From: Candidatus Fermentibacterota bacterium
Lineage (GTDB): Bacteria; JAFGKV01
Assembly (NCBI GenBank): GCA_016928395.1
Contig: JAFGKV010000004.1
Location: 1-47,922, forward strand
Reading direction: 5' to 3'
DNA: 47,922 nt
Shown: piece after piece, positions 231 through 14,846 of the stretch
How the letters are laid out: each line of letters starts with the position of its first letter
Numbering within the stretch: position 1 is the stretch's first letter
Made by a program: the position numbers and the translations under genes
The notes under the pieces: generated by a model
Told to the model about the DNA's origin: nothing
The model's input: only the letters and a program-made list of their open reading frames with translations
The model's database searches: none

Positions 231-1043
231 ATGGGTATCACTCCGTTTCAGCGCGCCATATGCAGACTGATCGCTGCGAACAGAGCGCAGACCGATCAGG
301 CGTATGTGGCGGGTGGCGTTGCGCTGAATCTGCTTCTTGATGCGCCGCGGATATCCCTGGATATCGACCTCTTTCACGATACCGCTGAATCCCTGGCCAA
401 GACGTGGGACGAGGATCGGCGTCTTCTCACCGAACGCGGCTACGCCGTCGAGATCGTTCGGGAGCGCCCCTCTTTTGTCGAGGCCCTCGTCAGGAAGGGG
501 GGCGAAAGCGTCTTGATGCAGTGGACTCAGGACAGCGCCTATCGGTTCTTTCCCCTCCTCACGCACGACGATCTCGGGCTTACTCTCCATCCCTTCGACC
601 TCGCGACGAACAAGGTTCTTGCCTTGGCCGGCCGTTTGGAGCCCCGCGATTGGATTGACCTCATGGGCTGCCATCATGGCGTGCAGAGGCTTGGCTACCT
701 CGCCTGGGCTGCCTGCGGGAAGGATCCGGGATTCAGCCCTGAGGGAATCCTGAACGAGGCCAAGCGATCATCCCGCTATACCGCGGTGGAGATCGCGGAG
801 CTCTCCTTTGACGGTCCGCCACCCGATGTTGCCGCGCTGTCAGAAGAGTGGAAGTCGATGCTTTCTGAAGCCGAGGAGATCATCGGGCTGCTGCCCGTGG
901 ACACTGTCGGAACATGCGTCCTTGCGGCCGATGGGCAACTGTTTCGGGGCGGAGCCGACGAGGCTGCCCGCGCCCTTGCACGGGGCACGCTGCACTTCCA
1001 TCCAGGCAGCATACGGGGCGCGTTTCCCCGTATCGCGGCCTGA
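231..1043 (+). CDS. Nucleotidyltransferase AbiEii/AbiGii toxin family-like protein
   Basis: The 270-residue protein carries the nucleotidyltransferase-fold signature near its N-terminus: a GG at about residues 28-29 (AGGVALNLLLDAPR) followed by SLDIDLFHD, giving the paired Asp residues of the DNA polymerase beta-like site. A third acidic position would be expected further along (possibly DDLGLTLHPFDLATNK), and the FDLATNKVLALAGRLEPRDWIDL stretch is typical of the AbiEii group, where a helical domain follows the catalytic fold. Family members transfer nucleotides to RNA or protein targets and act as toxins in type IV toxin-antitoxin or abortive-infection systems. The small upstream gene is the likely partner, though it does not look like the classical winged-helix AbiEi antitoxin. 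Function as a toxin is inferred. Confidence 0.75.
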   Translation: MGITPFQRAICRLIAANRAQTDQAYVAGGVALNLLLDAPRISLDIDLFHDTAESLAKTWDEDRRLLTERGYAVEIVRERPSFVEALVRKGGESVLMQWTQDSAYRFFPLLTHDDLGLTLHPFDLATNKVLALAGRLEPRDWIDLMGCHHGVQRLGYLAWAACGKDPGFSPEGILNEAKRSSRYTAVEIAELSFDGPPPDVAALSEEWKSMLSEAEEIIGLLPVDTVGTCVLAADGQLFRGGADEAARALARGTLHFHPGSIRGAFPRIAA

Positions 1044-1127: not shown

Positions 1128-1796
1128 CTACTCGTGGATGATGCGCACTCGATCGGCGGCGACGCTGTCTCCGACGCAGCGGGTGAAGAGGTAGCGAGCT
1201 GTGTCTTCCTCGTTGAAAGGGCCTCGGTAGTTCCACCCAAGAGGCGTGGGGTTTCCCATCCGCGCCAGGGGCATTAATCCCTCTCCCCCGCCCCCGGGGG
1301 TCTCCCGCACCGGCGCAAGCCGGGCCGCGATGTCGGCGGCTAGCTCGGCCCGGCGAGCGCCCCGGGCGGCGCCATAGAGCTCGAAGGTCTCCTTTAGGCC
1401 GGCAAGAGGCGCTGCGGACGCCACCATGTGAATCGTCTCAACACCCGTATTGTCATCCAGCCTGAGCCACGGCAGCGATCTCAGGGTTTCGCCCTCTTGC
1501 TCTCCCCGAGACGCATGGAACAGGGAGTAGTCGCCGTTGGCCATCTGGATGATCACGTACACGAAGGTATCCAGCATCCTGTGCAGTATGATCCGGATCT
1601 GATCTCCGGAGTGCATGGCAACCCCGTCCTGCACCGCAAAGAGGCTGTCCTGCCGCGATGCGGTGCGGCCGACAATCCCATACTCAAAGGTAACCGGCCC
1701 GGATGCCATAGCCTGGGGCTGGCCAGCGGCCACGCCACAAGAGAGTGCGACTATCGTCACCAGGCACGCAACCCCCGCGCCGAGACGCGAGGTCAT
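1128..1796 (-). CDS. Secreted DUF4384-like protein of the sigma/CHAT locus
   Basis: The 222-residue protein starts with a clear Sec signal peptide (hydrophobic core VACLVTIVALSCGVAAG, probable cleavage near residue 25). The mature part begins with a beta-rich segment (SGDQIRIILHRMLDTFVYVI then GDYSLFHAS) that resembles DUF4384, a domain often attached to caspase-like or kinase signalling proteins. The C-terminal half (about residues 130-222) is not recognised. Its start codon overlaps the anti-sigma stop by 4 bp (ATGA), so the two are translationally coupled. A periplasmic role in sensing or in modulating the CHAT protein or the anti-sigma sensor domain is inference. The DUF4384 assignment rests on pattern similarity only. 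Confidence 0.65.
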   Translation of the reverse strand: MTSRLGAGVACLVTIVALSCGVAAGQPQAMASGPVTFEYGIVGRTASRQDSLFAVQDGVAMHSGDQIRIILHRMLDTFVYVIIQMANGDYSLFHASRGEQEGETLRSLPWLRLDDNTGVETIHMVASAAPLAGLKETFELYGAARGARRAELAADIAARLAPVRETPGGGGEGLMPLARMGNPTPLGWNYRGPFNEEDTARYLFTRCVGDSVAADRVRIIHE

Positions 1797-2539
1797 GGCG
1801 TCTCTTTCGAGGAAACAACCGGCGCGATACGGAAGAGAAACACGAACCGGTTCATGACCGCGCCGTCGCCTGGGCGCACCTCTTCGACATGGAGCTCATA
1901 GTCTCCCGGGGTGAAGAACGAGCTGTGGCATGCAATGGCGAACGTCCCATAGGGGCCGTGGCCTTGGAGGCCGGCGCCGCTCCACGCCACCGCGCCCCTT
2001 GCGTCGATGATACGCGCGCGGTGGTGTGTTTCCTCGTGCGCGCGGGAGACCACATTGAACTGAAGGAGGAACCGGCCCGCGTCCTTGGGGATGACAACCG
2101 AAGGCTCTTCGCCCCTCGTCCCCTCCTCCGCCACATAGGTCAGGAGTCCGGCGGACGGCATCCGAAGCGCATGAACCTCGTGCCTGAGGGCCGCGACCCG
2201 CACCCACCCCAACGTCGCCGGGATCCCCACGATCACCGCCGCCGCGGCGGCGGCCAGAATGGGCTTCCAGGCAGGAACCGGAAGAAGCCACTGGTGGAAC
2301 CGTTTCGCGGGAACACGGAGTCGCACGACAGACGCGGCCCGTGCGGGAAGGGGCGTGGGGTGCGCCACTTCTCTCTTGACGAAACGTTTGATCTGTGAGG
2401 TCTCCTCCAGCGCCTTGAAGCACTCATCACACTGGAAGTAGTGTGCTTCCCACTCCTGCTCCTCCTCCGGGGTCAGTTCATCCCGGAGGTAGCGTTCGAT
2501 GATCTCCAGGCGCGCGACGTCATCGTGGTCAATCACCAT
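1793..2539 (-). CDS. Membrane-anchored zinc-finger anti-sigma factor
   Basis: The 248-residue protein has the layout of an ECF anti-sigma factor. The N-terminal cytoplasmic domain holds the zinc-associated motif HYFQCDEC (H33, C37, C40; H-x3-C-x2-C). One membrane helix lies at about residues 93-118 (Ala/Val-rich, after a Lys/Trp-containing segment). The C-terminal part, about residues 120-248, is beta-rich and would be periplasmic (motifs RFLLQFNVVS and FTPGDYELHVEEV). The sigma gene lies upstream on the same strand after a 191-bp gap, and the DUF4384-like gene follows with a 4-bp overlap. By family knowledge it should hold the adjacent sigma factor inactive until a signal reaches the periplasmic domain. 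The ATG is preceded by an AAGGA ribosome-binding site. Confidence 0.85.
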   Translation of the reverse strand: MVIDHDDVARLEIIERYLRDELTPEEEQEWEAHYFQCDECFKALEETSQIKRFVKREVAHPTPLPARAASVVRLRVPAKRFHQWLLPVPAWKPILAAAAAAVIVGIPATLGWVRVAALRHEVHALRMPSAGLLTYVAEEGTRGEEPSVVIPKDAGRFLLQFNVVSRAHEETHHRARIIDARGAVAWSGAGLQGHGPYGTFAIACHSSFFTPGDYELHVEEVRPGDGAVMNRFVFLFRIAPVVSSKETP

Positions 2540-2730
2540 TGCCTGGTCCTTTCACGCCCCGTCCCCGGCCGGCGTCGCTCGCGGTTCCCCGCTTGCGGTT
2601 CACGATTCTCTCTCCTCCTCATCCATCCGTCTATCGTTCCCGATTCCCAACGGCTCGTCCTTCCAGGCCGCTCCCTCACCTACTATGTTCACGGTCCGCT
2701 TCATTCGTGACATGATGACGGGGAGTGAAC
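2540..2730 (-). other. Gap between sigma and anti-sigma genes with a possible leader mini-ORF
   Basis: This 191-bp gap breaks an otherwise tight operon. On the minus strand a GTG at 2603 follows GGAGG-type purines and opens a 24-codon frame. That frame ends with TGA at 2531-2529, so it overlaps the anti-sigma ATG (2539-2537). The encoded peptide is basic and Gly-rich and has no recognised homology. It may be a leader that couples translation into the anti-sigma gene, or chance. I saw no convincing promoter or terminator in the gap. Confidence 0.3.
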
Positions 2731-3288
2731 TCACCCGGTCTCCGTCAGGCCCTTCCGAAGAGCTGCCACGGCGCGACAGACCCGTTGCCGCACGGCGTCT
2801 TCCTTCAGATTGAGTTCGGCGGCGATCTTCCGGTAGCTCCATTCCTCGCCGAACCTCAAGACCAGGAGCCGTCGCTCCGCGTCTCCCATGGAGGCCATGA
2901 GGCGTCTCAGCCGCTCGTGGGCTTCCTTCTCCAGGTGGATCGCTTCGGGGTCTTCCTCTCTGCTGCGCAATGCCGCGGTGTCGCCCAGGGGAAGAGACCG
3001 CCGCGTGTGCTGCGTCCAGCGAGTGGTGAGATTCGAGCTGATCTTGTACACATACGCCCCCGCATTGCCGGTCTCCGTCAGGCGGCCTTCCCGTACCGCC
3101 AGCAAGAGCGCCACGAATACGTCCTGCTCCAGGTCTTGGGCCGCGGCATCGTCTCCCCGTAACCTGCGCAGGATGAAGAATCGAACTCGTCCCCGGTACC
3201 GCTCCCAGAGAGAGCGCTCCGCAGCCGTGTCGCCGGCCAGTATGCCGCGGATGAGTTCGGCATCGGTCGGTGCGGCCATAGGCGGCAT
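2731..3288 (-). CDS. ECF-type RNA polymerase sigma factor
   Basis: With the ATG at 3288, one base after the TPR-CHAT stop codon, the protein is 185 residues, the usual size for an ECF sigma factor. An upstream in-frame ATG at 3357 would run into the CHAT gene and is not preferred. Region 2 is visible as YRGRVRFFILRRL and AQDLEQDVFVALL. Region 4 is visible as GDAERRLLVLRFGEEWSYRK followed by a helix-turn-helix (IAAELNLKEDAVRQRVCRA). There is no region 1 or 3. It sits between the TPR-CHAT gene and the anti-sigma gene, so its activity is presumably controlled by them. Its target promoters cannot be told from this window; autoregulation is common in this family. Confidence 0.9.
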   Translation of the reverse strand: MPPMAAPTDAELIRGILAGDTAAERSLWERYRGRVRFFILRRLRGDDAAAQDLEQDVFVALLLAVREGRLTETGNAGAYVYKISSNLTTRWTQHTRRSLPLGDTAALRSREEDPEAIHLEKEAHERLRRLMASMGDAERRLLVLRFGEEWSYRKIAAELNLKEDAVRQRVCRAVAALRKGLTETG

Positions 3289-3289
3289 C

Positions 3290-6200
3290 CTAATTCCGCC
3301 CGACCAGCACGAAGGGCGCCCAGTAGTAGGGATGCCGCAGGGCAGGAACCTCGCCATGAAGGAAAGAGAGTTTCGCCTGCCGTGCAGCCTCGGCCCTGGT
3401 GGCGCCGGATGCCAGCCCGCGGTAGAACTCTTTCATCCATTGCGCGGTGGATCGATCATTCACTGGCCAGAGACTGACCAGCACCGCCTGGCTGCCGGCG
3501 TGGAAGAATGCCCGCGCCAGGCTCACCATGCCCTCTCCCGGCACAGGTTCGCCCATGGCGCTCTCGCACGACGACAAAACCATGAAGGCGGGCGATGATG
3601 CCAGTTGGAGGATTTCATCGAGCACCAGCATTCCGTCGTCTCCCGGATCGGGCCCCGGGGTGAGGACGATGCAGGACCTCCGGGGCGCCTGCACGTCGAT
3701 GAGTGAATGCGTCGCGAAGTGCGCGATCCCATGGGGCCGCTGAAGCTCGCTGACCACGCGGCCTTCATTGGCCTCCCCTCCAATGAGCATGGTACAGCGC
3801 CCCGCGTCAAAGGATACGCACACGCTCTCAGCCTCGGCCTCGGCCCAGCGCAGCAGGGGAAGTGAGCGTGACGAAGGAGGAGAGAATCCCGAAACGGCGC
3901 TGGCGCCCCCGGGCCCTGCGGAGGGGGGGCGTGTCTCAGCCACTCCCCGCGAATCCCTGATGCCGACCGCCAGCACCGAGGGCTCGCCTCCACGATCTCC
4001 TTGCCGCCATAGGGCGAGAAGGCTCGTGGCCGATGGTGCGTACGACACCACATGGGTCTCGATCAGCAATGGCCTCGCGGAATCGGGCGCCGCGGGTAAT
4101 GCCTCGAAGGGGATCGCCAGCAGCGGGCCGTCGGGCACGATGCAGATGCGCAGCCCAGGAGAGGCTCCCAGACCGCCGGCAGGAAGAATCGTGGCCGCCA
4201 GCCTTTGCCCCTCCTCGTCACAGCGGGCGCCTAGGCGGGGAGATTGGGCCGTCTCAGCCAGGAGGCGGCCCACCATCTCGGCAACGCGAGCCCGGGAGGG
4301 TAGCCGGCGCATCGCCACGGAGTCGGGAGAGACTTCCCACAGAAACGACTGCCGCTCCCCCACAAAGTACTCCAAGAGCACCGCAACGCCGTGACGTCGC
4401 ATGGCTGCCTGAAAGGATCGACACGGATCAGCGAGTGTGGCCCATTCCGGCGACCCACAAGCCTCACCTCGCGCCCGCAGGCGGTTGAGTTCGTCTTCAC
4501 GGGCGGCCGCTTCGCGACGGAGTGAATCCGCCCGGGGAGAATCCCTGGCCTCGTGCCAGATCAGCCCGCTGAGCCGGCTGATCTCCCGAACCAGCGCGGC
4601 GCGGGACGAATGGCCATGGACCTCCCGCCCTCCTGCGGCGCCCAGAAGATCCAGGAATGAACGGGCCTTGGCCCGCTCCGCGGCGACGAAGGCGCGGTGT
4701 GAGAACCCGGCGGCGGGATCCTGTTCGTGGAGCACGGCCAGAAGCCCGACGAATCGCTCGTAGACCTCCATCTTGCTGGCGAGAAACCCGAAACGCCATT
4801 CCTGTACCGACAGCATCGCACGGGAGTCCTCGATGGCCACGGCCGCCGCGTCGTACATGGCCAGAGCCTTGCGCCAGTCGCCGGCGTCTTCGTGGCAGCG
4901 AGCCAGCCCATAGCGAGTGAACCAGACCAGCTCCGGCGCCTCGCTCATTGTCGCCTGCTGGAGGCTTTCGGCGAAAAGCGTCGCAGCCTCCACCGGTCGG
5001 CCCGCCCGCAGGGTCACTTCCCCCAATGCGGCTGAGGCCAGGGCCTGACCGTGCCGGTCGGCACACTCGGCGGCCACTGCCCGCGCGTTTTGTATGGTCT
5101 GTTCGGCCAGCGGCTGATCGTCGCCTCCCAGGGCCATCCCGGCATTCAGCAGGGCCGCGGCTGTGGATTTTCCGTCGCCCAGCCGCTCGAACAGGATGGC
5201 CGCCGCCAGGAAGTGCTCCCGTGCCTCGGCTCGTCGGGCCCGCCGAAACTCCAACCCGCCAAGCGAACCCCGAGCCGCGGCAACCGTGGCGGTATCGCGC
5301 AGTGTCGTCCCCACAACGAGGGCCCGCTGGACGGCATCCTCGGCCCGTGCATGATCGCCGATGGCCATATAGGCGTTCGCCAACCCGATGGATCCGGTCG
5401 CTATCCCCAGGGAATCTCCCAGTGTCTCGGCAAGGCTTACAGAGCGGTGGAAGAGGCCCAGCGCCCGGCCCGGCTCGCCGTGATCGAGCAGCACAGACCC
5501 CAGATTGGACGCCGTCGCGGCCTCTGCCGATTGGTGGCCGAGGGTCACATGGAGCGTTCGCGCATCCTCGTAGCGCGCGATGGCAAGATCGGGCCGGCCT
5601 CGCCGGGCGGCAATGCCTCCCAACGCGTCAAGACAGGCGGCCGGGCCTTCGGGATCGTGCACGAGGCGTAGCGCACGCATCGCCGTATCCAGTGTAGTTT
5701 CGGCGCCCGACAGATCACCGAGCCGCGCCAGCGCATCGCCTCGCAGCTTCAGCGCCCACCCCTGGGCTCGCCTGTCGCCCGCCCGCGCCGCGACCGTGGC
5801 GGCGATGGCGAGCATCGCCTCCGCGCCGGCCGCATCGCCCTGCAGAAGCCTGAGATACGCCAGTTCGCACCGAACAGGCGCCTCCAGATGGGGCAGGCCA
5901 TAACCGGTGCAGAGCTGTAGAGCCTCCAGGCCTGCCGCGGCGGCGCCGGCGGTATCGCCGAGGAGGCGGCGGACAATGCAGAGGGCATCCAGGCTGCGCA
6001 CGTGCAGCTCCGGATCGCTGGATGCCATGGCCAGGGACACGGCATGCTCGGTGTGGCGCAGGGCTTCCCCATAGCGCCCCATGCCGCGCACGGCGCGAGC
6101 CATCAGCAGGCAAGGCTCTCCCCAGTTGGGCGCCAGCGCCACGGCCTGTTCGGCGCAGGCCAGCGTGGAATCCCACGCGGCGGCTTCTGCCAGAAGGAGA

Positions 6201-6763
6201 CCACGGCCCAGCAGCCGGGTGGCGGCGTACGGTTGGTCACTACCCGCATTACGGGTCTCCGCGGCGATCTCGGGCAGCGCACCCCTCCGCCGGGCGGCTT
6301 CGGCGAGATAAGCCCAGCACAGGGCGTCGCCGGGATATGACGCGGTTACGGCGCGAAGATAGGCCAATGCCGCACTGTCGTCGCCTGACGCCAGCATGAC
6401 CACGCCGATGCCGTAGCGGGCTCTTGGGTGTGAGGGCACGGCGTGCAGGGTGTCCAGCCAGGCCGCCAGAAGCCGGGTTCTCTCCACGCTGTCACCCGCA
6501 GCCACGGCAACCCTGATAACGCGCCACGGCGCAGGATCCGCCACGAGTTCCTGGCGCAGAACTCCAGTGCCCGGCAGCGGGGGGTGCGCGTCGGTGGATA
6601 CCGACCGGCGTGCAGGCTCCGTCCCACAGCCGGTAAGCACGGCGACAATCAGTGCCAACGCCGCGGCCTGATACCCCGACCACGTGACGGCCCCATGCGG
6701 GCGCGCCTCTCTCGGGGGAGGGCAGGCGTCCCAGAGACCGGGTTCAACCAGTTCCATTCTCAT
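3290..6763 (-). CDS. TPR-repeat CHAT-domain protein (caspase-like protease), predicted lipoprotein
   Basis: Starting at the ATG at 6763, which follows an AGGGG ribosome-binding site, the protein is 1157 residues. The frame is open about 39 codons further upstream, but without such support. A hydrophobic stretch ends in the lipobox-like LTGC about 46 residues in; the region before it is unusually long for a signal peptide. Many tetratricopeptide repeats fill about residues 80-700. The last 300 or so residues form a CHAT domain: HFATHS supplies the catalytic His (H1019) and LSSCESA the catalytic Cys (C1066), followed by the typical SLWPVND and PYYWAPFVLVG ends. Both residues of the dyad are present, so protease activity is plausible. 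It is the first gene of a minus-strand operon with sigma, anti-sigma and DUF4384-like genes. The natural substrate is unknown; the anti-sigma sensor domain is a reasonable candidate. Confidence 0.9.
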   Translation of the reverse strand: MRMELVEPGLWDACPPPREARPHGAVTWSGYQAAALALIVAVLTGCGTEPARRSVSTDAHPPLPGTGVLRQELVADPAPWRVIRVAVAAGDSVERTRLLAAWLDTLHAVPSHPRARYGIGVVMLASGDDSAALAYLRAVTASYPGDALCWAYLAEAARRRGALPEIAAETRNAGSDQPYAATRLLGRGLLLAEAAAWDSTLACAEQAVALAPNWGEPCLLMARAVRGMGRYGEALRHTEHAVSLAMASSDPELHVRSLDALCIVRRLLGDTAGAAAAGLEALQLCTGYGLPHLEAPVRCELAYLRLLQGDAAGAEAMLAIAATVAARAGDRRAQGWALKLRGDALARLGDLSGAETTLDTAMRALRLVHDPEGPAACLDALGGIAARRGRPDLAIARYEDARTLHVTLGHQSAEAATASNLGSVLLDHGEPGRALGLFHRSVSLAETLGDSLGIATGSIGLANAYMAIGDHARAEDAVQRALVVGTTLRDTATVAAARGSLGGLEFRRARRAEAREHFLAAAILFERLGDGKSTAAALLNAGMALGGDDQPLAEQTIQNARAVAAECADRHGQALASAALGEVTLRAGRPVEAATLFAESLQQATMSEAPELVWFTRYGLARCHEDAGDWRKALAMYDAAAVAIEDSRAMLSVQEWRFGFLASKMEVYERFVGLLAVLHEQDPAAGFSHRAFVAAERAKARSFLDLLGAAGGREVHGHSSRAALVREISRLSGLIWHEARDSPRADSLRREAAAREDELNRLRARGEACGSPEWATLADPCRSFQAAMRRHGVAVLLEYFVGERQSFLWEVSPDSVAMRRLPSRARVAEMVGRLLAETAQSPRLGARCDEEGQRLAATILPAGGLGASPGLRICIVPDGPLLAIPFEALPAAPDSARPLLIETHVVSYAPSATSLLALWRQGDRGGEPSVLAVGIRDSRGVAETRPPSAGPGGASAVSGFSPPSSRSLPLLRWAEAEAESVCVSFDAGRCTMLIGGEANEGRVVSELQRPHGIAHFATHSLIDVQAPRRSCIVLTPGPDPGDDGMLVLDEILQLASSPAFMVLSSCESAMGEPVPGEGMVSLARAFFHAGSQAVLVSLWPVNDRSTAQWMKEFYRGLASGATRAEAARQAKLSFLHGEVPALRHPYYWAPFVLVGRN

Positions 6764-7071
6764 CACACCCCTGACCTGGGGGCCGGGTGCTCCGGCGGGG
6801 GATGCCAATCGTCCTCTGACACATTGACACACTAGTGCCTCCCTGCGCCTGCGGCAAGAGCCGCCATCAATGCGGAACAACGGAAGGTTGGATCTTCTGA
6901 TGGATGGACGGCGGGAAGGAATGGGGGGCGTGGGGGCTGCTCTGTTGACGGTGAGCGGCGCTCTGCTCGCGAAGTGAGCCTCCTCCCTGGATGAATGGAC
7001 CGCGGCCTGTTATCATGGGCGTCAGTTCATCCTCGCTCTTCTCGACACAGCCTACATCCAGGAGTCTTCCC
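6764..7071. other. Divergent intergenic region between the TPR-CHAT operon and the subtilase gene
   Basis: These 308 bp must hold promoters for both directions. A tandem TGACACA repeat (6817-6831, 8-bp period) lies about 54 bp upstream of the TPR-CHAT start and could be an operator. A TATCAT at 7011-7016 lies 56 bp upstream of the subtilase start, but no good -35 element stands 16-18 bp before it. I saw no further gene; short frames here lack ribosome-binding sites. Confidence 0.35.
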
Positions 7072-10000
7072 ATGGGCCGCCTCTCTCTGTTCGTCACCCT
7101 CGCCATTCTCGCCCATACCGCCTCTGCCGGCGACTATGCACCCGGCAGACTGGTAGTAAAGCTCGAACCCGCGGCGGCGTCACAGCTGCTTTCGGGTGGT
7201 GCGACCGGAAATGCGGCGCTGGATGACTACTTCGCTGCGCTGCGGCCGCGGCAGGTCCGCCGGCTGGCCGCTGCGCGCCGCGATGGGCGCAACGAGGCGC
7301 TCCGTCGCCGGTTCGGCTCGGATGGAGTACTTGCCTTCTCCTTCACGGGAGATCGCGATCCGGCCGCCGTAGCGGCAAAGCTGGCGGACATGCCCGGTGT
7401 GGTGTACGCCCATCCGGATTACTACGCCCGTATTGCCGCCGAGCCCAACGACCCCCTCTACCCCCACCAGTATGCCATGCCGCGCATGAGCATGCCCGCG
7501 GCCTGGGACATCGCCCGAGGGTCGGCCTCGGTCATCATCGGCATCAGCGATACCGGCACCGACTGGAACCATCCCGACCTGCGCGATATCATCCGGATCA
7601 ACCCGGCCGAGGATGTCAACGGCAATAGCGTATTCGACAACTTCCCGGCCGACTCGGGCGGCGATCTTGATGGCATCGATGCCGATGGCAACGGCTATGT
7701 GGACGACGTCATCGGCTGGGACTTCGTGACCGCCGACAATGTCGCCGAGGGGGAGGACGGCCTGCCACCGGACCCGGATCCCATGGACTTCGACGGCCAC
7801 GGCACGGCCACGGCCGGGATAGCCGGCGCGGCCACGGACAACGGAGTCTTCGTTGCCGGCACCTCGTGGGGCTGCACCATCATGCCGTTGAGAACCTTCT
7901 ATCGTCACCCTTCGGGCTCGGGCACGGCGGTCGCCTCCGACATCATCGAGGCGTTCTACTACGCGGCGGACAATGGGGTTGACGTGCTCTCCATGAGCTT
8001 CCGCAGCGGCGGCTCCGAGGGCCTCGAGGACGCCGCTCTCTATGCCCATGCCGCCGGGGTGTTTCTGGTGGCCTCGGCAGGCAATGAGGGCTCGGAGACT
8101 GCGCCCGCCCCGGCCGGATACCCGCAGGTCTTGGCAGTCGCGGCCACGCAGCAACAGGATCTGAAGGCGTCCTTCTCCAACTACGGAGCCTGGGTCGGCG
8201 TGTCGGCTCCGGGGGTAGACATCTGGACCACGGCCTTTGACGACACCTACATGGCAGACTTCGGCGGCACCTCAGCTTCGTGCCCCTATGTCGCGGGCAT
8301 GGCGGGCCTGCTCCTTTCCCACAATCCTTCGCTGACCAATGTAGACCTGTACTACCGGTTGGTGGGCACCGCCGATGAGATTGACTCCGTCAACCCCGAG
8401 TTTCGCGGCGCGTTGGGCTGCGGACGGCTGAACGGCTTCCGAGCCCTCACCGAATCGCCGCATCCAGCGCTGCGGCTCGTGGCCGTGCAGGTCGACGACA
8501 CCACCGGCGGCAACGGCGATGGGTTGTTGGGACCGGGCGAAACCGCCATCCTGTCCTTTGCCGTGCGCAACTACTGGGAAGACGCCCCAACCGTGGCGGG
8601 GGCGGTGCTCTCGGCGGATCCTCACATTACCGTGGATTCGACGTCTACAGTCATGTTCGGCCCAATTCCCACCGACAGCGTGGTCGCCTCGCCTGAAGGC
8701 ATCTGCGTCACGGTCTCCACCGATGCCGAGATCGGCTATCATGTGCCGTTCACCCTAAGGCTCACTTCGGGCGCCTACACCGAAGACGTGCTCTTCCATA
8801 TACCCATGGCAGCCCAAATGCTGATCGACGCGGCGGCCGACTTCGGGTTGTCCGGTGTGTCGGGCGGTATCACCGCGGTGTTCGCGGATTACGACGGTGA
8901 TGACGATCCCGATCTCTATCGTTCGGCGTGGAGCGGGACTCCTGCGTTGTACCGCAACGACGGTGATACCCTGATCGATGTCACCGCCTCCGCCGGCCTG
9001 CCGGTCTCGGGCCAGGGCCAAGGCGCCGCGTGGGGCGACTATGACAATGACGGCGACCCCGACCTCGCCCGGGGCACCGCCGCCGGATTAGCCCTGTTTC
9101 GCAATGACGATGGCGTCTTCACCGACGTGAGCGCCTCGGCGGGTTTTTCCTCTTCCTCGCCGCGCAACTTCGCACCCGTGTGGGGCGACTTCGATAATGA
9201 CGGCTGGCTGGACTTGTTCGTGACGCATCAGCAGCAGGTCAACCAACTCTTGTGCAACAATGGTGACGGCACCTTCACCGACGTTGCGAGCACGGCCGGA
9301 GTGGCGAGCGATTCGGTCTCGTACGGCGCATCGTGGGCCGATTTCGATCGCGACGGCGATCTGGACCTGTTCGTGGCCAATTACGGGTCTGTGTGGCAAG
9401 GGCAGGTGAACCAGTTCTATGTAAACCAGGGCGACGGCACCTTCCTGGAGTGCGCTGCCTCGCTGGGATTGGCTGATGAGGCCCTCATCTCCACAGGTGG
9501 CCTCTGGGGCGATTACGACGGCGACGGCTGGCTCGACCTGTACGTCACCAACAAGGGTTCGGCAGGCCAACCCAACCGCCTCTACAGGAACATCCAGGGA
9601 GCCGGGTTCGTGCGCCAGCCGCAGGCGGGGCTGGAGGATCCGCGCAGTTCCTCCAGCGCCGCCTGGGTCGATTTCGATGGCGATGGGCGGCTTGATCTCC
9701 TCGTGTCCAATACACAAGGAGGAGCTCTCTACCGGAATTTCGGCAGCACCTTTGGCGATGCCACCGAGAGCGCGCCCCTGGCCTTCAATGGGCTGGTAGC
9801 GGCTGTCGCCGATTTGGATGGTGATGGCGACGACGATATCTACGTGGGCAGTCCCGCCGGAGACCGGATCCTTCTCAACCTGTCCGATCCGGCCTCAGCC
9901 CTGCGAGTATGCCTGGAAGGGGCCCCTGGGCCGTGGGGAAGCCCGCGGGATGCCGCGGGTGCGCGAGTGACATTGGACGGCTGCCGGCGGGTCACCAGGA

Positions 10001-11199
10001 CGGTGCACGAGGGAAGCGCGTGGGGTCAGAGCAGCCCCATTCTCACCATGCCATGGCTGGGCGACGCCGAGAGCGCCATCGTGGAATGGCCGTCGGGGAC
10101 GATCCAGCGGGTGGATCTTGCTGGCCCGGGAATGCTCTCCATTGTCGAGGCCAGGCCCACCGTGGACCTCGCCCTGAGGGCCATGGGCCTTCCCTTGGCC
10201 ATCTCCCACGGCGAGTCGCGCCTCAAGGTCTGTGCTGCCGTGCAGGATAATGGCACCACCCCTTGTACCGGGAACGTCGTGACCCTTGCAGTTGCCGATG
10301 AAGGCGGCATCACCGTGTACACTGACTCGTTGAGCGCCGAAGACGCGCCGGGGCCGATCGCGGGCTTCGACGGGGTACCCGCGCCACCATCGGGTGCGAG
10401 CTACACGTACACCGTGACCGCGGTGGCTCTTGGCGATGAGGCCGCCTGGAACAATGAACAGATACAGATCGTCACCGGTGGCGAACCTCACGAAGACTTC
10501 GAGCTGCCGCCGGTCTACTGGGATCTGCCGTCATCGTGGCGATGGGCTCGCTCAAGTCCCGTTCATCCGGCCTTTGCTGGGGAAGGATTGCTTGTGCTGG
10601 AGGCATCCGAAGATGAGCCGGCCGCGCTCTCCCCGTTCTACCCGGTGACGACGGGCACCGTAGTGGCGGTGCGCTTCATGGGCTCGTGGAGCCTGGGAAG
10701 CGACTCGGTGGTGGTCACCGTCAGGCAGGTCGATCTGGACCTGGGCAGGCTGGTCTTGGGCGGCACGGCTCACTATTGGGGGCATCAAGTCCTGGAGTTC
10801 CAGGTTGCAGAACCCGGTGATATTCAGGTGGAGTGGCGCAGCGTGGCTGCCAACGGCGGCGACCCCGACGCGTTCTTCCGCGTAGATGATGTCGAGGTGG
10901 TTGTCGTGGCGTCCGGCCAGCCCGAGACCATGCCGACGGTGTTGTCGGTCTTTGGGCCCTGGCCGAATCCGACCCGGGGAACCCTGACGTGGAGTCTCAG
11001 TGTTCCCCGCGCCGCAACGGGACGCCTGGAGGCATATGATCTTCTGGGCCGTCGTGCCGTCGTGCATGACCTGGGCTTTCTGCCGTCTGGAACGCAGCGG
11101 GTGGTACTCAACACAGACAGGCTGGCGCCGGGCATCTACGTGGCGAGGTTCACTGTAGAGTCTTCAACGTGTGTCCGGCCTTTCGTACGGCTTCGATAG
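7072..11199 (+). CDS. Giant secreted subtilisin-like (S8) protease with FG-GAP/ASPIC repeats and C-terminal sorting domain
   Basis: The ATG at 7072 follows AGGAG by 7 bp and begins a signal peptide cleaved after about residue 19 (TASA-GD), giving a 1375-residue precursor. A propeptide-like segment is followed by an S8 domain with the full triad: D160 (ISDTGTD), H243 (DGHGTATAG) and S401 (GGTSASCPYVAG), with oxyanion Asn338. Acidic insertions (DVNGNSVFDN, DADGNGYVDD) look calcium-binding. About residues 590-940 contain seven FG-GAP/VCBS-type repeats of the form DYDGDGWLDLYV. An ASPIC/UnbV-like domain follows (WPSGTIQRVDL). The last 80 or so residues (PNPTRGTLTWSL, YDLLGRRAV, LAPGIYVARF) match FlgD-like/type IX secretion sorting domains. 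It is probably exported to the cell surface or medium for protein degradation. Divergent from the TPR-CHAT operon. Confidence 0.95.
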   Translation: MGRLSLFVTLAILAHTASAGDYAPGRLVVKLEPAAASQLLSGGATGNAALDDYFAALRPRQVRRLAAARRDGRNEALRRRFGSDGVLAFSFTGDRDPAAVAAKLADMPGVVYAHPDYYARIAAEPNDPLYPHQYAMPRMSMPAAWDIARGSASVIIGISDTGTDWNHPDLRDIIRINPAEDVNGNSVFDNFPADSGGDLDGIDADGNGYVDDVIGWDFVTADNVAEGEDGLPPDPDPMDFDGHGTATAGIAGAATDNGVFVAGTSWGCTIMPLRTFYRHPSGSGTAVASDIIEAFYYAADNGVDVLSMSFRSGGSEGLEDAALYAHAAGVFLVASAGNEGSETAPAPAGYPQVLAVAATQQQDLKASFSNYGAWVGVSAPGVDIWTTAFDDTYMADFGGTSASCPYVAGMAGLLLSHNPSLTNVDLYYRLVGTADEIDSVNPEFRGALGCGRLNGFRALTESPHPALRLVAVQVDDTTGGNGDGLLGPGETAILSFAVRNYWEDAPTVAGAVLSADPHITVDSTSTVMFGPIPTDSVVASPEGICVTVSTDAEIGYHVPFTLRLTSGAYTEDVLFHIPMAAQMLIDAAADFGLSGVSGGITAVFADYDGDDDPDLYRSAWSGTPALYRNDGDTLIDVTASAGLPVSGQGQGAAWGDYDNDGDPDLARGTAAGLALFRNDDGVFTDVSASAGFSSSSPRNFAPVWGDFDNDGWLDLFVTHQQQVNQLLCNNGDGTFTDVASTAGVASDSVSYGASWADFDRDGDLDLFVANYGSVWQGQVNQFYVNQGDGTFLECAASLGLADEALISTGGLWGDYDGDGWLDLYVTNKGSAGQPNRLYRNIQGAGFVRQPQAGLEDPRSSSSAAWVDFDGDGRLDLLVSNTQGGALYRNFGSTFGDATESAPLAFNGLVAAVADLDGDGDDDIYVGSPAGDRILLNLSDPASALRVCLEGAPGPWGSPRDAAGARVTLDGCRRVTRTVHEGSAWGQSSPILTMPWLGDAESAIVEWPSGTIQRVDLAGPGMLSIVEARPTVDLALRAMGLPLAISHGESRLKVCAAVQDNGTTPCTGNVVTLAVADEGGITVYTDSLSAEDAPGPIAGFDGVPAPPSGASYTYTVTAVALGDEAAWNNEQIQIVTGGEPHEDFELPPVYWDLPSSWRWARSSPVHPAFAGEGLLVLEASEDEPAALSPFYPVTTGTVVAVRFMGSWSLGSDSVVVTVRQVDLDLGRLVLGGTAHYWGHQVLEFQVAEPGDIQVEWRSVAANGGDPDAFFRVDDVEVVVVASGQPETMPTVLSVFGPWPNPTRGTLTWSLSVPRAATGRLEAYDLLGRRAVVHDLGFLPSGTQRVVLNTDRLAPGIYVARFTVESSTCVRPFVRLR

Positions 11200-12329: not shown

Positions 12330-14846
12330 GTGCACCTGCGAATCATGAAGACCGGGATGATCGTCATGGCCGTAGTCAGCGTTGTGCTGGCCGGGCTCTA
12401 CCTCGTCCGCGACTTCACCAAAGTCGCCACCATGGTGCGCATGGGTGACATCTGGAGCATGGTGCAGCTCTCTGATGCGCCCTCGTCGGCGTTCATCGAA
12501 GTTGATCGCCGCGACTTCCCCGAACCCCCGTTTCCCGTTGCGGGTGACACCCTGCTCACCATTGATGGCAAAGCCGTCTCAGCCGAAACCTACTTCACGA
12601 TCTTCACCACCCACACTGCGCCGGGCTCCCGCCACGGCCTCACCTTCCTCCACGACGGCCAGGTATTCACCACGGACGCGGTCACCCGTGCCATTCCGTT
12701 GCCCCTGAAGATCCAGGTGGTGGCGCTTCACGTGCTCACCGTCGTGTTCACGCTCGGCCTTCTCGGTATTGGGATATGGGCCTATGCGACGAAGCCTTCG
12801 GCGGCGGCCGTTCGAGTCATGACGCTGCTGTGTCTCACCATGGCGCTCTCCAGTCTCATGTCACGCAGTGGCGTTGCCGGCGCCTACGCGACGTTCCAGC
12901 TCCCCCGGGTCGTGTTCAATCTCATCGGCGTCATCGGCCTCTTCTCCGGCGCCTTCTGGGTTCACCTCCAGTTGGTATTCCCTACCAAGGCATCGTGGTG
13001 TGCGGGTCATCGTGGCCAGGCACTCATCACGCTCTACGGACCCCTCGCGGCGTCATTGCTGCTGCGGTTGGCGCCGCCGCCGGTCCGCGAGCCTGCGATC
13101 CAGACCGTGGTCACCTCGTACTGGCTGCTCGGCTTCTTTCTTCTGAGCCGCAATCACCGCCAGGCCGCCAGTCTTCTCCAGCGCCGCCAGACAAGGCTCG
13201 TACTCTGGGGATCGGCCCCCGCAGTCTTGACGGGCCTGGCTATCGGCTGGAGCGGGGTCCTGGCGGGACCGTGGTTCAGGAGTCTCCCCTATGCCACGAA
13301 GCTCGCCGTGTTGAATGTCAACTCCCTGCTCCTGGTGTTCATTCCTCTCTCCGTGGGTTATGCCTTTGGCAAGTACCGGCTTCTTGAGGTGGAAACGAAG
13401 CTGAAACGCGGCACGAGGTTCCTGTTGACCACCGGGGCGACCGTCGTGCTGCTGCTGGCCGCCTGCGCTGTGCTCTATCTCGGCGCATCGCGTCTCTTCG
13501 CGCAACTGGGAGTAAGGGGTGAGTTCCCGCCCAACGCGGTGGCCGTCGTGCTGGCGCTGGGGTTTCTTCCGGCCCACTTCTCACTCCGCCGCTCCTTGGA
13601 GAACCGCATCTACCCCGAGCGCGCGCGACTGCATGCCATGCTGCAGGGCTTTCTGCAACAGCCGCACACAAGCCGATCCTTCTGGCTGGAGCTGGCACAG
13701 CAGCTCCGTGACGGCATAGGAGCCAGCGCCGTGTACCCGCTCCTGCGACGACGGGATGCGCTACCCTTCGCGGTCGAGTGCTGCGAACTGGCCCCGTTCC
13801 GTGCCGATGATCAGTTCAGTGAAGCCGTGCTCAAGGCTCGCCACCCCTTGCCGATGGATGAGATCGTCGCCAGCGGCCGCGTCCCTCTCACCGGCGATCA
13901 ACGGGAATGGCTTTCCCAGCGTGATGCGGCGTTGATCGTGCCCTTGGCAACCGTCTCAGGCCTCCGCGGCATTCTGGTGGTAAGTGCTCGTCTGGAGGGT
14001 GACGATTATGCTCCCGAGGAGCTGGAAATCCTGCGGGTGATGGCCACGCAGATCGCCTTGGTCGCCGAGACCATCGAGTTACTGGAAGAGCGGGTCGAGC
14101 GCCAACGTCTGCAGGAGGAGATCCGCCTCGCACGGCAGATCCAGGAGGGCCTGCTGCCCGGGAATCTGCCCGTCACGCCCGGGCTGGAGACAGCGGCGCA
14201 CATCCGCTTCAGCACTGACGTGGCTGGCGACTACTATGATGTGATTCCTCTCGATCGCGACAGAACGCTGGTGGCTGTAGGCGATGTGACCGGCAAGGGT
14301 ATGGGGGCTGCGCTCATCATGTCCAACCTGCAGGCTGCGCTGCGGGCCATCGGTGGGGTGGATCTCCCCCTGAGCCAGGCGGTGGGACAGATCAACTCGT
14401 TGATTCATGACAATACGCCCTCCGACCTGTTCATCACCGTGTTCGTGGCCGTCTACGACTCCCGCACGGGAGATCTCACCTACGTGAACGCGGGCCACGA
14501 CCCACCGATCGTGTGTACCGCCGGCGGTGAAATCCGGCGACTGCCCGCCACAGGCCTCCTGATCGGCGTGATCCGGGGCACGGCCTACCACGAACGGAGG
14601 GTTCATCTGAACCCCGGCGATCTCCTCTTCGTGTACACCGATGGGGCCAGCGAGGCTATGAATGACGATGAAGAGGAGTTCGGAGATGCCAGGCTCGCCG
14701 CTTTGGTGGCCGCGCACCGCGAGGCGCCCCTATCGAGGATGCTGGCGACTGTCGAAGAAGAGGTGAGGCGCTTCCACGGGGGCAGGCCCCTTCAGGACGA
14801 CGTGACCCTTCTCGCCGTCCGCCGCCTGCTGGAGACCACGCTGTAA
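12330..14846 (+). CDS. Membrane-bound PP2C-type (SpoIIE/RsbU-like) serine phosphatase with PDZ-like and GAF-like regions
   Basis: The GTG at 12330 is chosen because GGAGG ends 5 bp before it; a GTG at 12318 lies upstream of that site. The 838-residue protein has an N-terminal membrane helix, then an extracytoplasmic PDZ-like segment (GDTLLTIDGKAVSAETYF). Six to eight hydrophobic helices follow to about residue 415, then a GAF-like domain (about 430-590) and a coiled linker. A SpoIIE/PP2C phosphatase domain closes it (GDYYDV, VGDVTGKGMGAAL, NAGHDPP, LFVYTDGASEA), which keeps the metal-binding Asp residues. Such enzymes dephosphorylate anti-sigma-factor antagonists or similar partner-switch proteins. 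No partner kinase or antagonist gene lies next to it, so the target is unknown. Confidence 0.9.
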   Translation: MHLRIMKTGMIVMAVVSVVLAGLYLVRDFTKVATMVRMGDIWSMVQLSDAPSSAFIEVDRRDFPEPPFPVAGDTLLTIDGKAVSAETYFTIFTTHTAPGSRHGLTFLHDGQVFTTDAVTRAIPLPLKIQVVALHVLTVVFTLGLLGIGIWAYATKPSAAAVRVMTLLCLTMALSSLMSRSGVAGAYATFQLPRVVFNLIGVIGLFSGAFWVHLQLVFPTKASWCAGHRGQALITLYGPLAASLLLRLAPPPVREPAIQTVVTSYWLLGFFLLSRNHRQAASLLQRRQTRLVLWGSAPAVLTGLAIGWSGVLAGPWFRSLPYATKLAVLNVNSLLLVFIPLSVGYAFGKYRLLEVETKLKRGTRFLLTTGATVVLLLAACAVLYLGASRLFAQLGVRGEFPPNAVAVVLALGFLPAHFSLRRSLENRIYPERARLHAMLQGFLQQPHTSRSFWLELAQQLRDGIGASAVYPLLRRRDALPFAVECCELAPFRADDQFSEAVLKARHPLPMDEIVASGRVPLTGDQREWLSQRDAALIVPLATVSGLRGILVVSARLEGDDYAPEELEILRVMATQIALVAETIELLEERVERQRLQEEIRLARQIQEGLLPGNLPVTPGLETAAHIRFSTDVAGDYYDVIPLDRDRTLVAVGDVTGKGMGAALIMSNLQAALRAIGGVDLPLSQAVGQINSLIHDNTPSDLFITVFVAVYDSRTGDLTYVNAGHDPPIVCTAGGEIRRLPATGLLIGVIRGTAYHERRVHLNPGDLLFVYTDGASEAMNDDEEEFGDARLAALVAAHREAPLSRMLATVEEEVRRFHGGRPLQDDVTLLAVRRLLETTL

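Follow-up and report, generated by a model that had tools for sequence, protein, structure and literature searches.

Recurrent association of TPR-CHAT protease genes with ECF sigma factor/anti-sigma factor pairs and its possible role in sigma factor control

Introduction

Regulated intramembrane proteolysis, as represented by RseA/DegS/RseP and RsiW/PrsW, employs site-1 proteases of the PDZ-trypsin-like or PrsW families. A protease of a different kind controls a sigma factor in the type III-E CRISPR systems (CASP/Craspase), where Csx29 cleaves Csx30, the inhibitor of CASP-sigma, and so relieves sigma inhibition (PMC10028731). Proteolytic control of an ECF factor with the involvement of CHAT has also already been proposed for the ECF54 group, which is described as acting without an anti-sigma factor and whose gene context, with an example from Geodermatophilus, includes CHAT, subtilase and carboxypeptidase neighbours (PMC8999054). 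In a literature search that lay outside the ECF classification, the sole CHAT protease found with an established role in sigma factor control was the CRISPR one, and ECF54 was the only case found in which CHAT had been linked to ECF by gene context.

Here we describe a gene cluster from a Candidatus Fermentibacterota bacterium, carried on a stretch of 47,922 nucleotides (the window; contig JAFGKV010000004.1) from an assembly of 4.8 Mb in 343 contigs. As in RseA/DegS/RseP and RsiW/PrsW, the anti-sigma factor is a single-pass protein with an outer domain and the genome encodes a site-2 protease, but the candidate site-1 protease is a CHAT protein. The cluster resembles type III-E systems in linking a TPR-CHAT protease to an ECF-type sigma factor and an inhibitor; it differs from them in having no Cas7-11 or CRISPR genes, in the predicted export of the CHAT protein and in its inhibitor, which is a zinc-type, one-helix membrane anti-sigma factor and not Csx30 (PMC10028731). 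With ECF54 it shares a CHAT gene in an ECF context for which proteolytic control can be proposed, together with a subtilase gene adjoining the cluster, whereas the presence of an anti-sigma factor sets it apart (PMC8999054). An initial annotation of the window had suggested that a periplasmic, lipid-anchored CHAT protease cuts the anti-sigma factor and thereby frees the sigma factor.

Results

Four minus-strand genes make up the cluster, encoding a caspase-like TPR-CHAT protease of 1157 aa that is predicted to be exported (3290..6763), an ECF sigma factor of 185 aa (2731..3288), an anti-sigma factor of 248 aa (1793..2539) and a secreted DUF4384-like protein of 222 aa (1128..1796). These positions from the initial annotation were found again, as were the spacings of 1, 191 and -4 bp, the TPR-CHAT stop codon TAG (3292-3290) and the sigma ATG at 3288 leaving 1 bp between them. 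The surroundings are those of a chromosomal housekeeping region (gyrA, gyrB, enolase and a class I tRNA synthetase). An AbiEii-like nucleotidyltransferase gene with weak PADLOC matches (231-1043, plus strand) adjoins the cluster. At 6991-11199 (plus strand), divergent from the CHAT gene and about 230 bp from it, lies the gene for a large subtilase, which contains FG-GAP repeats and has a weak Por-type sorting tail; another gene stands there in G001, a genome of the same genus.

A type III-E or defence origin was considered and rejected in view of these surroundings and of the profile matches: on the TPR-CHAT protein the Csx29 model NF041237 reached 14.3 bits, far under its cut-off of 300, and no Cas7-11 (multi-RAMP) protein was found at the locus or in the genome, the assembly being 94% complete. 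PADLOC gave a TPR match only for the CHAT protein. Elsewhere the genome has one lone RAMP, of 374 aa and on another contig; the Cmr1-like RAMP gene at G000:C87:24229-24819 (L133) stands by itself, no further CRISPR genes being seen in the retrieved stretch. In agreement with the earlier description, the cluster does not belong to a type III-E CRISPR system.

The CHAT domain (PF12770) occupies residues 854-1156 of the protease (3296..4204, minus strand) and matches at 185.5 bits against a cut-off of 24, which identifies the protein as a CHAT protease; TPR_12 matches eight stretches, the TPR region extending from about 100 to 650, and a PDB sequence search returned TPR proteins only. The catalytic dyad had been correctly numbered as H1019 and C1066, and in an alignment of the surveyed CHAT domains these columns hold His and Cys in 112-113 of 115 sequences. 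At the N-terminus, a hydrophobic stretch (about 33-46) ends in LTGC, with the cysteine at position 46, and follows an n-region that is unusually long and non-basic. The orthologue from the same genus keeps the hydrophobic stretch and the cysteine, but reads MITC, which is no canonical lipobox. Export of the window protein is therefore likely while a lipid anchor is uncertain, so that of the periplasmic, lipid-anchored protease first suggested the location stands as a prediction and the anchor is doubtful in the sister species.

The sigma factor gene product scored above the cut-offs for Sigma70_r2, r4 and r4_2 and reached 79.2 bits against 42.9 for TIGR02937; with Sigma-70 regions 2 and 4 only, it is an ECF sigma factor. 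As the initial annotation had it, the anti-sigma factor combines a zinc motif (HYFQCDEC, residues 33-40, of the form HxxxCxxC with H33, C37 and C40) with a single predicted membrane helix at 94-112. The histidine and both cysteines are retained in the sister genome, and the N-terminal motif next to an adjoining ECF gene marks the protein as a putative zinc (ZAS) anti-sigma factor, its PF13490 (zf-HC2) score of 18.8 lying below the cut-off of 22.2. Its outer domain (about 149-240) was modelled, with moderate confidence and the rest of the model with less, as an Ig-like beta-sandwich, for which Foldseek gave generic Ig-like matches and no informative homologue; a PDB sequence search with the anti-sigma factor gave no match. 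The gap between the sigma and anti-sigma genes contains a block of about 45 bp that is common to two genomes of the genus (the window, and 12657-12855 as the corresponding gap in L016), with the core GTGAACATNGTAGGTGAGGG at 2673..2692 on the minus strand. This block could be an ECF promoter for the anti-sigma and DUF genes, or a small reading frame, a possible one being VNIVGEGAA in one genome and VNMVGEGAA in the other. A reading of the block as a regulon motif was unsupported because the remaining near matches in the genome sit within predicted reading frames.

The fourth gene product carries a signal peptide (about residues 1-25). Pfam gave no match when run on this protein alone, so that PF14326 was not reached, and its structure model (pLDDT 41) was too low in confidence for fold comparison. 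When sequences of this genus were left out of the DUF4384 profile, the profile still found it (E ~1e-4, Z = 5000), which makes the label ‘DUF4384-like’ a fair one as long as it is taken to denote a remote relationship. DUF4384 was found next to CHAT in three settings. In the window, G001, L017, L035, L026 and L078 it forms a protein of its own, in most cases with a signal sequence; in L074 it is the outer domain of an anti-sigma factor, and in L051, L089 and L111 it has this place in membrane Ser/Thr kinases adjoining ECF and CHAT genes. This distribution suggests that DUF4384 is a recurrent CHAT partner which in the window stands as a protein of its own.

The host phylum is represented by three genomes in the searched collection. 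G001 keeps the order CHAT, sigma (after 4 bp), anti-sigma (after 199 bp) and DUF, and identity between the two genomes of the genus is 51% for CHAT, 59% for the anti-sigma factor and 55% for the DUF protein; in G002, of the same family, the TPR-CHAT (at E 1e-30), anti-sigma and DUF proteins had no match. CHAT was present in 81 of the 290 genomes searched. We retrieved about 108 CHAT neighbourhoods, drawn from the upper part of a score-ordered list and including eight loci picked because they resembled the window protein, and scored all open frames with purpose-built sigma and CHAT profiles, sigma factors being called mechanically. An ECF-like gene lay no more than 3 kb away from 49 of 115 CHAT frames, and about half of the CHAT genes had no ECF neighbour. 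Up to 2 kb from CHAT there were 12 ECF genes per 100 kb, compared with 0.8 at distances over 3 kb, an enrichment of about 15-fold (binomial p ~2e-15) seen in 26 of 53 families. The conservation of the sigma/CHAT neighbourhood, on which the original proposal depended, thus extends from the genus to about half of the families surveyed.

Among 36 curated sets of sigma, anti-sigma and CHAT genes, the order sigma, anti-sigma, CHAT in one direction accounted for 25; the CHAT gene came first in three (the window, its sister and L088), seven sets were convergent and one was divergent. The distances of CHAT and sigma were correlated (r 0.31, 0 of 5000 permutations). The anti-sigma factors had zinc motifs or related N-terminal domains, with outer parts that varied between Ig/FnIII-like (judged by eye and from the window model), TPR and DUF4384-like.

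When the predicted anti-sigma membrane helix (TM) was set against the predicted CHAT signal sequence (SP), calls made by eye and not blind gave 22 TM/SP, one TM/noSP (L038), no noTM/SP and 13 noTM/noSP cases (Fisher 6e-9). Fixed automatic thresholds gave, for the same four classes, 19/4/1/13 (p 1.4e-5), 20/3/1/13 (p 1.9e-6) and 16/6/2/13 (p 6e-4); L055, the one locus that both looser settings put in the noTM/SP class, has a helix closely flanked by arginines. Both kinds of topology occur within a single genome in G188 (L074 and L104) and G200 (L044 and L081). On a CHAT tree there are four switches of one trait and five of the other, and nearly all independent pairs are concordant, the co-variation depending on about four switches, two of them on supported branches, a number with which a phylogeny-corrected test cannot reach significance. 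Membrane anti-sigma factors are thus predicted to pair with exported CHAT proteins and soluble ones with cytoplasmic CHAT proteins, nearly always on the same side of the membrane. A cytoplasmic window protease, which would have spoken against the initial proposal, is not predicted, and the predicted export of CHAT tracks the anti-sigma membrane helix.

At one locus the two proteins are joined. In L064 (genome G134) a single reading frame, starting 11 bp after an ECF gene, encodes a protein of 1191 aa in which two zinc motifs (zf-HC2 above cut-off) are followed by a helix at 144-160, by TPRs and by a CHAT domain (206 bits). In G323, of the same genus as G134, a frame at L167 3-3590 (minus strand) likewise has zinc motifs, a helix and TPR-CHAT, with a single in-frame TGA in the linker just past the membrane helix; with this layout in a sister species, the L064 fusion is no single mis-assembly. 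An N-terminus inside the cell and one helix would place the TPR-CHAT part outside, as predicted for the window, and the fusion speaks for CHAT and anti-sigma factor being direct partners.

Discussion

Our working model is that the sigma factor would be held by the membrane anti-sigma factor, with the zinc domain inside and the Ig-like domain outside, and that the exported TPR-CHAT protein would act on the outer side as a dedicated partner of the anti-sigma factor. A signal sensed by the TPR region, the secreted DUF4384-like protein or both might lead the CHAT domain to cut the anti-sigma factor, or a protein that shields it, outside the membrane, and an RseP-like site-2 protease would then free the sigma factor; an M50 protease of this kind is encoded in the genome (PF02163, 187.7 bits) and adjoins dxr. 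Export, physical contact, cleavage, the order of events and the signal are the parts of this mechanism that we infer. The recurrent pairing and the shared membrane side suggest, without amounting to proof, that the protease helps to throw the sigma switch, and it is probable that CHAT and anti-sigma factor work as direct partners within the same compartment. That CHAT cleaves the anti-sigma factor is plausible given the conserved dyad, the precedent of Csx29, Csx30 and CASP-sigma, and the RseP-like protease. Against a shared cleavage target, the anti-sigma outer domains belong to several families, so that a common substrate is not evident, and the fusion protein would require CHAT to cut in cis, which also counts against cleavage. 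The roughly half of CHAT genes without an ECF neighbour and the small number of topology switches likewise weigh against the model. The complete module, with CHAT cleaving the anti-sigma factor or a shielding protein before RseP-like site-2 release, is for us possible rather than probable. Of the original idea of CHAT as the partner that frees the sigma factor, the conserved neighbourhood, matching topology and fusion speak in its favour; the lipid anchor is doubtful in the sister species and the idea was partly preceded by ECF54.

ECF genes frequently adjoin their own target genes and CHAT is an effector domain in conflict systems, so the protease might instead be an output, induced when the ECF/anti-sigma pair senses stress in a compartment and serving there for repair, for clearance or for cell death. 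The genes would then form an autoregulated regulon, as the 25 of 36 sets in the order sigma, anti-sigma, CHAT would fit, and the common topology would mirror only the location of the stress. We regard this as rather unlikely: it accounts for the operons but not for the fusion, which places CHAT within the regulator, nor for the seven convergent sets and the one divergent set, which are adjacent without co-transcription, and the window CHAT gene lies ahead of the sigma gene. That an ordinary ECF/anti-sigma pair merely happens to lie next to an unrelated CHAT gene would agree with the roughly half of CHAT genes that lack a nearby ECF gene, but the enrichment, the conservation in the genus, the topology co-variation and the fusion make chance very improbable indeed, and at the level of genomic association it is ruled out.

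A further alternative accepts the partnership and questions the cut. CHAT could be a co-sensor bound to the anti-sigma outer domain that does not cut, or cuts differently with substrates elsewhere, and that is restrained by this outer domain or by the DUF4384-like protein. The L064 fusion, in which TPR-CHAT can serve an anti-sigma factor as its sensor domain on the outer side, and the alternation of DUF4384 between a separate protein and the outer domain of anti-sigma factors or kinases are both in keeping with it. The near invariance of the catalytic His and Cys speaks against a non-cutting role, since it indicates that catalysis is under selection whichever the substrate, and we consider this explanation improbable.

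Returning to CHAT as the activator, we suggest tentatively, and with about as much conviction as for the window itself, that there is a widespread CRISPR-independent class of ECF switch in which CHAT is a dedicated anti-sigma activator, placed on the side of the sensor domain and sometimes fused to it; Csx29/Csx30/CASP-sigma would in that case be a CRISPR-captured branch of this older scheme. If so, CHAT proteases would gain a general signalling role in bacteria and a new class of site-1-like protease for anti-sigma control would be added, with a hint at the origin of the type III-E arrangement. For many orphan TPR-CHAT proteins, the module also offers a partner that can be tested directly.

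The host genome has a second TPR-CHAT gene on G000:C333 (L001), its 5' end beyond the stretch, and no ECF gene was found near it in the retrieved part of that contig. At L114, L115, L120 and L107, which form a single clade, the CHAT domain is N-terminal or mid-protein and the anti-sigma factor is soluble and helix-free. ECF sigma factors under Ser/Thr kinases offer another comparison: L051, L089 and L111 are similar in having an ECF gene together with a membrane kinase that has DUF4384 as its outer domain, unlike the window, which has an anti-sigma factor and no kinase. With L017, where a Ser/Thr kinase is also present, these CHAT loci appear to carry a variant of the module that is built around a kinase.
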